Part shown: piece by piece, positions 9,183-17,082 of the stretch
Position numbering within the stretch: position 1 is the first letter of the stretch
Layout of the letters: every line of letters begins with the position of its first letter
DNA from: an uncultured Prevotellaceae bacterium
GTDB taxonomy: Bacteria; Bacteroidota; Bacteroidia; Bacteroidales; Muribaculaceae
Assembly (NCBI GenBank): GCA_900317325.1
Contig: ONGE01000001.1
Coordinates: 62,001 to 126,000 of the forward strand
Length of the DNA stretch: 64,000 nucleotides
Reading direction: 5' to 3'
Translations under genes and position numbers: made by a program
Notes under the pieces: generated by a model
What the model saw: only the letters and a program-made list of their open reading frames with translations
What the model was told of the DNA's origin: nothing
The model's database searches: none

Positions 9183-11885
9183 TTAGAAGGTTACGGTAAC
9201 GCCCAGATAATAGGAACGGGTGACTGGATAGATGTTCTTGTCGTCAACACCCAGCGTGCCGTTAACCGAAGAGCTGTTGATGATGGGCGTCAAGCCTGAA
9301 TAGCCCGTGATCGTTCCCAATTCATCAATCGTGAGAGACAGGCGCAGGCGGCTGATCGTGTGCTTCACCTTCTCGTTCAAGGGCACGTTCCAACCCAGAG
9401 TGAGGTAATCAAAGTCCAAATAGTCGCCGCGTTCCAACCAGTAGTCGGTCGCCGTTTGGTCATAAATCGCACGAGCCGGAGCGTCGGCCAAGACATTATA
9501 GCCCGGCAGACTGTTCATGTTCATATAGGTCAAAGCGGTTCCGTTGTATATCTTGTGACCAAAAGCACCGTTGATCTGCAAGGTCACATCCCATTGCTTG
9601 AAACGGAAGTTGATGTTACTGCCCAGCAGCACCTTGGGCATCGCCTGTCCGCACACGCGACGGTCCTTGCCGTTGGCGATGTCGACATCGCCCGAATGGT
9701 CAAGGTCGGCGATTTCATACACATAGCCTCCAGCCCCGTCACTCTTCAAACCAGTGCAGTGCGGCAGATAGAACACACCCAGCGGTTGTCCCACCATCTG
9801 ATAGACGATGTGGTTGTTACCGCCGTGGAAGCCCGCTCCGTTCAAGTTCACCAAGTCCACCTCGCCAGGTGCCTCGAGCCAATAATCCTTATAATAGCCG
9901 CTCAAAGAAAGCAGTTTGTTGTACTGATAGGCGACATTGACATTGATATTCAATTCCATGTCGCGGGTAGTGAGCGGCGAGAGGCCCAACGCCAGTTCCA
10001 CACCACTGTTGCGCATCGAGCCCAGATTGTCGAGCAACTTGTTATAACTGAACGGCGGCACACCCACATTATACAGATAAAGCATGTCGTTCGTCTTGGA
10101 GGTATAGAAGTCCAGCGAGGCGATGATGCGGTTGCCCAAGAAAGCGGCACTCAAGCCAGTGTTGAAACTGCGCTTCACCTCCCATTTGAGGTCGGGATTG
10201 GCATTGCGCAACGCATCGAGCGTCACAACCAGATTCTGTCCCACAGGGGGGATACCCGCTGGAGTGAGCACGTTTTGGGCCATGTAACTGTCCACGGCAC
10301 CCTGATTACCGGCAAGACCATAGCCCACGCTCCACTTCAGGTCATCGAGCCAAGTCACATCGTTCAGGAACGCCTCGTTACCGATGTTCCATGATGCCGA
10401 GAGCGAGGGGAAGAAGCCCCATTTGTTGCCCGATGAGAACTTCGACGAACCGTCGGCACGAGCGGCAACAGTCAATGAGTAGCGGTTGTCGTAGTCATAG
10501 TTGACACGCGCCATGAAAGAAGCCAGCGACGGGGCGTTGCGATAACTGCCAGTGCCGTCCCACAGCGTCACGGCTCCCGCCTGGATGGCATCAATTCCGA
10601 TAGCGTTGTTTGAAAAACCTGTTGTGGTGGTATAAAATCCCGTGTGAGTGTTGCGTTCAACCTCGGCAAGTCCCATCACATTGACGTGACTGAGGCCCAA
10701 CGTCTTGTCCCACGTCACGGTGGCATTGCCAAGCCATGAATCGGTCTTGGCGCTGCTGCGGTAACCCTTACCGCCGCTCCAGATGCTCGTCGGCAGGAAC
10801 TGCGACGTTTGCACCTCGTTGTGGCTATAGGCACCGAAAACCGAGAGTTTCCAGTTGGGGCTCAGGTTGAACGTGAGTTTGGCATGGGTACTCAGGTGGG
10901 TCGTCTTGTCTTGAGTGCGGCTATCCATCAACGCCAGCGGATGGTTGATCTGGTTGGCATAGGTGAAACCGTCCCAACCGCCGTCGCTGTTGCGCTCGGT
11001 GCCGAAAGTGGGATTCCATGCCTGAGCCGAGTAGAAGGTCTTCTGCACGTCATAGACAGCAGTCAGGTCCTTTTGCACGTTGCCGAACATGCCCACCTCG
11101 ATCGTCAACAGGTCGTTGAACATGCGCTGATACATGTTCATGTTGCTCGTCAAGTTGTTAAGTTTGCCATGCAGGATGACTGCGTCATGGTCCATATATC
11201 CCAATGAGACACGGTAGCCCGAACGCTCGCCGCCACCCATAAAGGCGACATGATGATCTTGAATGAAGGCGGTTTGCTGGATGGCTTTTTGCCAATCAGT
11301 GGTAAAGCCCTTGTCGATGAGCATCCCGCCCTGACTCCTCACCGCATCGCGGTAGGCCGCGGCATCGAGCATCTTGAGGTTTTTGCTCACATGAGTGATG
11401 CCCATACTCCCGTTATAGGTGACGGTAGCACGATGAGCAGCGCCTTTCTTGGTCACCACCTCGATGACACCCGATGCACCTCGCGAGCCGTATTGGGCGG
11501 TCTCGCTGGCATCCTTGAGCACCGTGAAACTCTCGATATCCGACGGATAAATCGATGACAAGGTGCTCAGGTCGCCGAACACGCCGTCAATGATAATCAA
11601 CGGGTCGTTGCCACCCGTGACCGACGTGGTGCCACGCACGCGCACAGCGTTCATCGCCGCGGCGCCATTATTACTCTTCTGTATCGTCACACCAGCCACA
11701 CGGCCGTTGATGGCCTCCAGGGGGTTGGTCACCTGCTGCTGACTCATATCCTCGGAGGTGACGACTGTGGGCGACATCAAGCGGACGATACTGTCGGCGG
11801 GAATCAGGTTTTGAGAGGCCATCGGAATCACGACAGCCATCAAGCCTGCAACGGCGACAAACCTCAAGTATAGACTGATTCTCAT
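9183..11885 (-). CDS. SusC/RagA family TonB-dependent outer-membrane importer, short form
   Basis: A 900-residue TonB-dependent barrel. The plug domain starts soon after a signal peptide (about 1-24) and contains the SusC signature around NDPLIIIDGVFG, then SIYPSDIESFTVLKDASET and YGSRGASGVIEVVTKKG. The barrel ends ...RSYYLGVTVTF with the C-terminal Phe. It lacks the N-terminal carboxypeptidase-regulatory-like domain present in most SusC proteins (compare the 1062-residue one at 58.5-61.7 kb). Its ATG overlaps the last 4 bases of rsmD. Together with the following SusD-like gene it should import a nutrient that cannot be named from sequence. Confidence 0.92.
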   Translation of the reverse strand: MRISLYLRFVAVAGLMAVVIPMASQNLIPADSIVRLMSPTVVTSEDMSQQQVTNPLEAINGRVAGVTIQKSNNGAAAMNAVRVRGTTSVTGGNDPLIIIDGVFGDLSTLSSIYPSDIESFTVLKDASETAQYGSRGASGVIEVVTKKGAAHRATVTYNGSMGITHVSKNLKMLDAAAYRDAVRSQGGMLIDKGFTTDWQKAIQQTAFIQDHHVAFMGGGERSGYRVSLGYMDHDAVILHGKLNNLTSNMNMYQRMFNDLLTIEVGMFGNVQKDLTAVYDVQKTFYSAQAWNPTFGTERNSDGGWDGFTYANQINHPLALMDSRTQDKTTHLSTHAKLTFNLSPNWKLSVFGAYSHNEVQTSQFLPTSIWSGGKGYRSSAKTDSWLGNATVTWDKTLGLSHVNVMGLAEVERNTHTGFYTTTTGFSNNAIGIDAIQAGAVTLWDGTGSYRNAPSLASFMARVNYDYDNRYSLTVAARADGSSKFSSGNKWGFFPSLSASWNIGNEAFLNDVTWLDDLKWSVGYGLAGNQGAVDSYMAQNVLTPAGIPPVGQNLVVTLDALRNANPDLKWEVKRSFNTGLSAAFLGNRIIASLDFYTSKTNDMLYLYNVGVPPFSYNKLLDNLGSMRNSGVELALGLSPLTTRDMELNINVNVAYQYNKLLSLSGYYKDYWLEAPGEVDLVNLNGAGFHGGNNHIVYQMVGQPLGVFYLPHCTGLKSDGAGGYVYEIADLDHSGDVDIANGKDRRVCGQAMPKVLLGSNINFRFKQWDVTLQINGAFGHKIYNGTALTYMNMNSLPGYNVLADAPARAIYDQTATDYWLERGDYLDFDYLTLGWNVPLNEKVKHTISRLRLSLTIDELGTITGYSGLTPIINSSSVNGTLGVDDKNIYPVTRSYYLGVTVTF

Positions 11886-16094: not shown

Positions 16095-16116
16095 GAGATT
16101 ATTTCCAAAAATTTTC

Positions 16117-16138
16117 TCATCTTTGTGCAACTTTTTTG
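16117..16138 (+). repeat. Left copy of a 22-base direct repeat flanking the transposase region
   Basis: A 22-base sequence (core catctttgtgcaac followed by a T run) that recurs exactly at 17061-17082. The catctttg part resembles a plus-strand -7 element. Confidence 0.8.
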
Positions 16139-16181
16139 ATGGCAAAGCATCAAAACGGATTTGAATGAGCCTGACGAGATA

Positions 16182-16303
16182 GCCTCGAAGAGGCAGACGG
16201 GTCGAAGACCCGATTTCTATGAGAAACACCATGCAAGACCCTCTACGAGGGGCGCCGCTTGGTGTCATGGCAGCACAAGGGAAAGTGCGTCGAAGACGAA
16301 CTT
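16182..16303 (+). repeat. Left group of four REP-like hairpins
   Basis: Four short palindromes: GCCTC-GAA-GAGGC (16182-16194), CGGGTC-GAA-GACCCG (16198-16212), CCCTC-TAC-GAGGG (16239-16251) and AAGTgCGTC-GAA-GACGaACTT (16283-16303). The third sits between caccatgcaag and cttggtg, which can pair to extend it. The right side of the transposase carries the same set in reverse order and orientation. Confidence 0.85.
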
Positions 16304-16318
16304 CTTCACACTCAAGGA

Positions 16319-16349
16319 TTGCTGCATCTAGAGTTTTGCGTTACCTTTG
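16319..16349 (+). promoter_or_regulatory. Predicted promoter of the transposase gene
   Basis: TTG at 16319-16321, then 20 bases, then TACCTTTG at 16342-16349: a good match to the Bacteroidota consensus. The ATG chosen lies 28 bases further on. Confidence 0.6.
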
Positions 16350-16377
16350 CAATTCAAACCTAAAACCGAATTTTGAT

Positions 16378-16821
16378 ATGAGCGCTGTCAGTTCGATGTA
16401 TCATGTCGTCATCAACACTTATCGCCGTCAGATGACTATTCCCGATGAGACGAGCGAGCATCTGTATCGTTACATCTGGTCAATTGTCAAGAGCCGTGGC
16501 TGTCGTCTGTATCGCATCAACGGTATCGGAAATCATATTCACATGCTCATTGAACTATCTCCAACTATTGCATTGAGCGACCTTGTGCGTGACATCAAAC
16601 AAGGCAGCAGCAAATGGGCAAAACAACAAGTCTATTTCCCGCAATTCAGCGGCTGGGGGAAGGAGTATGGGGCTTTCTCTTGCAGTTGTCGTGATAAGGA
16701 ACGGATTGTCAGTTACATTATCAATCAACGACAGCATCACCAGATGAGTTCGTTTGAGGAGGAGTATAGGCAAATGCTTGAGTTGTCGGGGCTTGAATGG
16801 AACGATAAGCGCCTGACATGA
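16378..16821 (+). CDS. REP-associated tyrosine transposase (IS200/Y1 family, RAYT-like)
   Basis: A 147-residue Y1 HUH single-strand transposase. The start MSAVSSMYHVVINTYRRQ fits the family; the 53 codons upstream run through the hairpins and are not believed. Key residues are the metal-binding HUH motif His53-Ile-His55 (GNHIHMLIEL) and the nucleophilic Tyr113 (RIVSYIINQRQHH); both are present, so the enzyme looks intact. There is no TnpB/IscB partner. Eight short palindromes surround it in mirror order, which is the hallmark of RAYT genes: domesticated relatives of IS200 that act on REP sequences rather than moving themselves. It carries its own promoter. Confidence 0.85.
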   Translation: MSAVSSMYHVVINTYRRQMTIPDETSEHLYRYIWSIVKSRGCRLYRINGIGNHIHMLIELSPTIALSDLVRDIKQGSSKWAKQQVYFPQFSGWGKEYGAFSCSCRDKERIVSYIINQRQHHQMSSFEEEYRQMLELSGLEWNDKRLT

Positions 16822-16834
16822 GTTGCCGAGGCCG

Positions 16835-16957
16835 AAGTTCCTCTTCGAGGCACTTGCCTGACGTGATAGCCGTCACCAAGCTGCGTGGGTCTTCGATCCA
16901 CTTGCATGGTGTTTTCCAACAAAGCCGGGTCTTCGACCCGTCAAGCCTCTTCGAGGC
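16835..16957 (+). repeat. Right group of four REP-like hairpins, mirror image of the left group
   Basis: Palindromes AAGTtCCTC-TTC-GAGGcACTT (16835-16855), GTGGgTC-TTC-GAtCCAC (16885-16901), CGGGTC-TTC-GACCCG (16926-16940) and GCCTC-TTC-GAGGC (16945-16957). The loops read TTC instead of GAA, so they are inverted relative to the left group, and the order is reversed. Between the second and third lies cttgcatggtg, the complement of caccatgcaag on the left. Confidence 0.85.
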
Positions 16958-17060
16958 TGGCCAAAAGCCATGAACAGGTTGGAACCAAGCACTTTAGAGA
17001 CAGAATGCTTTATTTGAATCGGGCCGTTTCAAGTCATTAAGTCACATTTCAAAAAAAATT

Positions 17061-17082
17061 TCATCTTTGTGCAACTTTTTTG
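17061..17082 (+). repeat. Right copy of the 22-base direct repeat
   Basis: Exact copy of 16117-16138. It lies about 77 bases before the DUF6249 gene and may include its -7 element (catctttg, one mismatch to TAnnTTTG). Confidence 0.8.

Follow-up and report, generated by a model that had tools for sequence, protein, structure and literature searches.

A Y1 transposase gene between mirror-image hairpin arrays

The 64-kb window (the whole stretch of DNA that was analyzed) carries an intact gene of the Y1/HUH transposase class at positions 16378..16821 of the plus strand. Its product of 147 aa displays the HUH motif at residues 53-55 (His53-Ile-His55) together with Tyr113, exactly as the initial annotation had it, and matches Y1_Tnp as its sole Pfam domain (E=6e-21). 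In the source genome (3.47 Mb in 44 contigs), the window gene is the single match to PF01797. H53, H55 and Y113 are invariant among 23 aligned relatives, as are N52, Q117, H120 and H121; in these relatives the HUH motif reads NHIH or NHVH, the Y motif Y---Q--HH and the W motif GWG. Homologues (E<=1e-3) are present in 81 of the 101 genomes of the genus, and matches to a Y1 profile (E<=1e-10) in 132 of 296 genomes of the phylum, the source genome being included in both counts. The median dN/dS of 0.036, obtained from 21 of 55 pairs (in the other 34, left out, synonymous change was saturated or not computable), indicates purifying selection. The profile also matches eight sequences of solved structure (E<=0.01; best 2f4f, E 4e-8), all labelled transposases and with ISHp608 named outright among them; judging by the entry codes, we take all eight to be IS200/IS605 TnpAs and none to be a TnpA-REP. 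A promoter-like -7 box read from the sequence (GTTACCTTTG, 16340..16349, plus strand) lies 5' of the gene, the Bacteroidales promoter consensus being TAnnTTTG.

On each side of the gene, four hairpins in mirror order make up an array of about 125 nt. On the left, in plus-strand orientation, these are H1 (GCCTC-GAA-GAGGC, 16182..16194), H2 (CGGGTC-GAA-GACCCG, 16198..16212), the two-tier H3 (16226..16265), in which the outer stem CACCAtGC/GCtTGGTG encloses a variable inner stem and the loop TAC, and H4 of the CGTC type (16283..16303), with a conserved G.A mismatch; all four are supported by covariation and by DNA folding. On the right, in minus-strand orientation, H4 of the CCTC type (16835..16855), located 13 nt 3' of the stop codon, is followed by the two-tier H3 (16874..16911), H2 (16926..16940) and H1 (16944..16958); covariation supports each of them and DNA folding also H2 and H1, H3 being incomplete in the single-sequence DNA fold. 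The two groups are indeed inverted copies with the same outside-in order, as first proposed, and include a 69-nt inverted pair (16196-16264/16874-16942) that is 74% identical. The loops originally described as GAA on the left and TTC on the right are so in seven of the eight hairpins, the exception being left H3 with its TAC loop and reversed apical stem. Likewise, the third stem, said to be variable and to stand beside caccatgcaag, does have a variable inner part, but caccatgcaag itself is largely an arm of the two-tier outer stem. Folded as single-stranded DNA, the window arrays reach z values of -3.0 to -4.0, the number of equally stable dinucleotide shuffles being 0 to 2 out of 200; depending on the strand, alternative pairings displace right H3 and some of the H4 hairpins. 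Counting both strands, the whole window has 11 C(GNA)G hairpins with a stem of at least 5, and 5 of them lie at this locus. The hairpin observation is confirmed, and the covariation and loop counts given below show that it is not due to chance.

The unit is flanked by a promoter-like 36-nt direct repeat, with the left copy at 16103..16138 and the right copy, 5' of the next gene, at 17047..17082 (both plus strand). Among the 30 loci of that next gene shown, 13 have array anchors upstream (two or more in 11; one in two, the right array being absent) and 17 are empty. Each of the 17 empty sites has a single copy of the repeat; of the 13 occupied sites, ten have two copies, two have one and one has three. 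In nine loci the repeat copies agree at 37.2 of 50 positions within a species vs 34.5 of 50 between species (permutation p=0.008), and four of these nine pairs (22, 30, 31 and 32 of 50) fall below the between-species mean. The copies are near-identical in L147 (45 nt) and L169 (49 nt), but not in L157. We did not accept the direct repeat of 36-50 nt as a normal target duplication, for it is far longer than 8 bp. At the window's site in G071 and G082 (L161, L167), the left array and the promoter-like box are kept and the gene and the right array are absent. The window copy occupies a site common to several species and is probably no longer hopping.

Conservation of the arrays and their gene-less copies

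The unit, a Y1 gene between mirror-image four-hairpin end arrays, is kept by compensatory change. The relevant set comprises the 60 flanks of the 30 best loci, set to one orientation, from which a fixed pattern extracted 50 arrays (ten flanks yielded none, two of them through a contig end); seven of the 50 were excluded beforehand and 43 aligned. Array lengths were counted from a fixed cut 58 nt before the anchor and are a free measure for the 3' part only. A structure of 34 pairs is valid in 95.9% of paired cells of the 43 arrays, vs 83.8% in shuffled and 30-46% in slid controls, and both-sided changes are seen in 18 of the 34 pairs vs 11.3 upon shuffling. RNAalifold recovers the same helices unaided (30 pairs). 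The outer stem of H3, for instance, varies from CACC/GGTG to GACC/GGTC and, in one sequence, to CCCC/GGGG.

Conservation around orthologous transposases, for which the initial annotation had called, extends down to about 45% identity: most of 16 relatives at 45-64% identity have the same hairpin plan with unrelated stem letters, and 14 of the 16 have a perfect stem of at least 6 bp within 250 nt on both sides, vs 2.5% of shuffled flanks. In L101 and L102 an array is found on one side only, which counts against the interpretation favored below, and L100 has, by eye, apparently three left hairpins. In other Bacteroidota families, among 25 of 29 relatives that were fetched, a perfect hairpin of at least 6 bp occurs on both sides in 15 (vs 3.2% shuffled) and on one side only in eight (vs 31% shuffled); by eye, a 3' tag such as AATGTNNATAG is common among these hairpins. 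Several hairpins of the array are tandemly duplicated on the right side of L007 and in L066 and L094. In L047/L015 (G020:C72), which have a different extended-end type, the sequence outside the arrays also matches, in inverted orientation, from one flank to the other over long stretches (54 matching windows).

Array pairs that lack the gene, again in inverted orientation, are scattered across the genus. A covariance model of the gene-flanking arrays (R1) finds arrays in 90 of the 101 genus genomes (E<=1e-3), with at least 34 in one genome. The source genome has nine matches at E<=1 (the weakest two at 0.02 and 0.04), of which two flank the Y1 gene and another two, separated by 29 nt, are an inverted pair without the gene, so that hairpin copies outside the locus do exist, as had been predicted. 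R1 pairs were found in 25 of 43 loci chosen among the matches listed, a share not to be read as a genome-wide rate, because many loci were picked for having both arrays listed. All 25 pairs are inverted, with gaps of 29 nt in 20, 28 in three, 26 in one and 18 in one, and in 24 of them the CGTC end is joined to the CCTC end. The structure is kept in 98.8% of cells of 66 R1 arrays from gene-less loci, in an alignment that was fitted to the model and leans towards it. A second array family, for which a separate model (R2) was built (two of 21 arrays were excluded from its alignment beforehand), is present in 71 of the 101 genomes (E<=1e-5). The 28 R2 pairs inspected have gaps of 51 nt in 12, 34 in nine, 19 in four and 38 in one, and two pairs enclose a remnant of the Y1 gene. 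G061 contains 20 arrays and no Y1 match; genomes of this kind, which are incomplete assemblies, weigh against the favored interpretation. In L289 and L290 (G094) only a 3' remnant of the Y1 gene stands between the paired arrays, and L114 (G000:C40, ~9787-10084) is a gene-less inverted R2 pair whose genome gave no matching transposase hit.

Terminal repeats, target duplications and the search for a partner transposase

Terminal inverted repeats, together with perfect 8-bp duplications, delimit the element in a few relatives that have the gene. The motif GGSWCASCYG is found on both sides in five of 57 such relatives, and four of these five, L050 (G086), L056 (G016), L078 and L080 (both G094), show a perfect 8-bp target duplication; in a cross-locus control, none of 85 pairs agreed at 7 or more of the 8 positions. 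Reversed flanks gave 2 candidates for the motif a side vs 10 and 9. The motif was partly derived from the same four loci, already seen, and the duplication test is independent of its letters. The other 52 of the 57 loci are without such a pair, which we count against the favored interpretation, and the window copy has no GGSWCASCYG ends, no 8-bp duplication and no recognized terminal repeat. Under a strict 13-of-14 rule for terminal repeats, nine of the 57 loci matched and only L050 was read as having a terminal repeat. One such terminus has 31 copies within two mismatches in G094, of which eight or more lie no further than 82 bp from the end of a contig, a position that suggests collapsed repeats. 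The terminal repeats and duplications of these relatives are a new finding of the present analysis; like the two-tier third hairpin and the miniature elements made of inverted array pairs, they had escaped the initial annotation. IS200/IS605 members have been described as having neither terminal inverted repeats nor larger target duplications, in the sections consulted of PMC2817692.

Many gene-less copies have a terminal repeat other than that of the gene-bearing units, and duplications of about 9-10 bp. ATTRGTGTCCGG stands on both sides, with up to two mismatches, in 16 of the 25 R1 pairs, and nine of 18 testable pairs show a duplication with 8 or more of 9 bases in agreement, vs six of 306 mismatched pairs; seven of the 25 pairs had been excluded (six by judgement, one by the terminus rule), and among the 27 length and offset settings tried the enriched ones share one register. 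The ends of R2 copies in G094 and G020 are likewise marked by ATTRGTGTCCGG, as are those of two or more further elements in the source genome. Its presence around array families that are unrelated to one another, and around a copy reduced to a single hairpin, counts against the favored interpretation, and so does the occurrence of R2 arrays with either of two terminal repeats. In the 14 R2 pairs with gaps of 34, 38 or 19 nt, ATTRGTGTCCGG is never present on both sides, so array pairs also exist without it. Plain internal deletion of the gene-bearing unit was rejected as the source of the ATTRGTGTCCGG-framed miniatures, because, with up to two mismatches allowed, five of 58 gene-bearing loci have the repeat on one side and none has it on both. 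A third miniature element, L219 (G000:C20:147025), has GCCCC hairpins, the terminal repeat ATTAGTGTCCGG and the duplication TAAAAAAAC; L217 (G000:C17:315655-315787), 133 bp long, is a derivative that has the same terminal repeat and retains a single hairpin.

Terminal repeats with duplications of 8-10 bp are typical of DDE transposases. The strongest rival explanation, to which we give a chance not far short of even, is that the arrays and the Y1 gene are passengers, and that a DDE transposase acting in trans recognizes the terminal repeats and moves both the miniatures and the gene-bearing elements, the Y1 protein being irrelevant to insertion. Such a scenario is compatible with the identity that we propose for the locus. 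It is favored by the terminal repeats and 8-bp duplications around gene-bearing relatives, by the excess of 9-10-bp duplications around gene-less pairs, and by the sharing of one terminal repeat by unrelated array families while one array family has different repeats. Against it stands the search for the enzyme itself: in G094, neither of the two intact elements (826 and 828 bp) has a further open frame of 100 codons, and Pfam identified no DDE transposase among 19 open frames beside 14 terminal-repeat loci in these incomplete assemblies (two frames are IS110-type, five have no match and the others are housekeeping genes or belong to other families). Of these 19 frames, nine come from nine ATTRGTGTCCGG loci (two IS110-type, none DDE) and ten, none of them a transposase, from five GGYTCACC loci. 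ISL3, the one DDE family searched genome-wide, has no matches in G094, G016, G086 and G051; G020 has a fragment at a contig end and the source genome one match below the cut-off. By Pfam, L256 and L276 have IS110-type transposase genes near an ATTAGTGTCCGG end.

Working form of the arrays, class assignment and possible mechanism

With respect to the form in which the arrays work, 148 of 172 loops have the form C-GNA-G with a free middle base, and the GNA loop is described, in the portion of PMC4686876 consulted, as an extraordinarily stable DNA mini-hairpin. On the GNA strand (top in the left array, bottom in the right), the stems contain 32 G-T pairs vs 9 A-C mismatches, with other mismatches in 51 further cells; the second hairpin of the second array family departs from the GNA rule. 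These two observations favor the GNA strand and a DNA form, which does not exclude an additional role as RNA. That the arrays act mainly as RNA, for instance by blocking transcription that enters from outside promoters, and so protecting a weakly expressed transposase gene, and by stabilizing its mRNA, would accord with a right array beginning 13 nt past the stop codon and with a left array that separates the gene and its promoter-like box from the promoter-like repeat further out. Nevertheless, an RNA role has no need of mirror symmetry, GNA loops or gene-less inverted pairs with fixed gaps, and we consider it improbable.

The initial annotation had labelled the protein a RAYT, and this label is not supported: the Y motif is Y---Q--HH rather than the Y---NP of the RAYT/TnpA-REP class 2, the solved relatives are, judging by their entry codes, not TnpA-REPs, and a GTAG or GTGG foot directly 5' of the hairpin on the GNA strand is found in none of the eight window hairpins. 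The description of the hairpins as REP-like survives as regards their dispersal as gene-less arrays in the source genome and across the genus, and fails as regards the foot. A canonical REPtron, that is, a RAYT with its REPs, would account for inverted hairpins on both sides and dispersed copies elsewhere, features that the locus has in common with the REPtron/RAYT/REPIN systems as portrayed in the pertinent part of PMC2817692 (a gene flanked by inverted hairpins; gene-less inverted pairs dispersed). It is largely contradicted by the class 1 Y motif, and the solved relatives, the missing foot, the ordered four-hairpin arrays of about 125 nt in place of single REPs, and the terminal repeats and duplications in relatives also speak against it, making it very improbable. 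An ordinary IS200-like relic with chance palindromes, which the single copy in the source genome might suggest and which would leave the hairpins confined to this locus and unconserved, is already contradicted by the conserved architecture, covariation, purifying selection and copies elsewhere in the genome and its relatives, and is barely credible.

The motifs place the protein in class 1, nearest to TnpA-Y1 subclass 1.2 except for NHIH and WG. In the part of the survey available to us (Quentin et al., 2018, PMC6006769), this subclass is characterized by a length of about 148 aa, Y---Q--HH, low copy number and occurrence in Bacteroidetes, all as here, and by DH[IV]H and a WQ W motif, in contrast to NHIH/NHVH and WG in the present family. 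In that account no REPs are listed for it and its members are generally without the typical terminal IS200 structures, terminal hairpins included, whereas arrays flank the window gene. With IS200/IS605 elements such as IS608 and ISDra2 the family shares the Y1/HUH motifs, the nearest solved structures and hairpins near the ends; it differs in its inverted ends, its four hairpins per end, and the terminal repeats and 8-bp duplications of some relatives. As for TIRtrons, the relevant passages of PMC3733652 describe a Y1 gene within terminal inverted repeats (here, GGSWCASCYG stands on both sides in five of 57 relatives, not around the window gene) and repeat families elsewhere in the genome, and the TIRtron/TIRYT motif GGGGWSAS resembles the GGSWCASC of the relatives; those passages do not mention target duplications or ordered four-hairpin arrays. 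Most TIRYTs, unlike the window protein with its short length and sole Y1_Tnp domain, are longer proteins of class 2.1 with an added C-terminal HTH domain, according to the part of PMC6006769 that treats them. The portions seen of the literature outside subscription journals and preprints contain no report of hairpin arrays in subclass 1.2 or of target duplications of Y1 elements.

Taken together, we favor, with moderate confidence, the view that the locus represents a long-resident, still intact copy, the only one in its genome, of a Bacteroidales family related to IS200/IS605, of the TnpA-Y1 subclass 1.2 kind, in which the arrays serve as the sites of the Y1 protein. Processing of the hairpins by this protein, as first suggested, is plausible. 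A Y1 dimer may bind the arrays as putative single-stranded DNA sites on the GNA-loop strand; because the arrays are mirror images, the two ends would be read on opposite strands, the top strand on the left and the bottom strand on the right. IS608, unlike the family proposed here, has both ends on one strand. The family would move, or be moved, leaving miniature array-pair elements behind. If the Y1 protein also cut at the arrays, staggered nicks in the target would yield the duplication; that it inserts a double-stranded element with terminal inverted repeats in this way, with strands read oppositely at the two ends and target nicks 8 bases apart, we regard as unlikely.

The family combines, in one place, features of REPtrons, TIRtrons and IS200 elements. 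Subclass 1.2, reported as REP-less, gains a definite candidate substrate. Moreover, the intact relatives with terminal repeats and duplications offer material for asking whether a Y1 transposase can insert double-stranded DNA.
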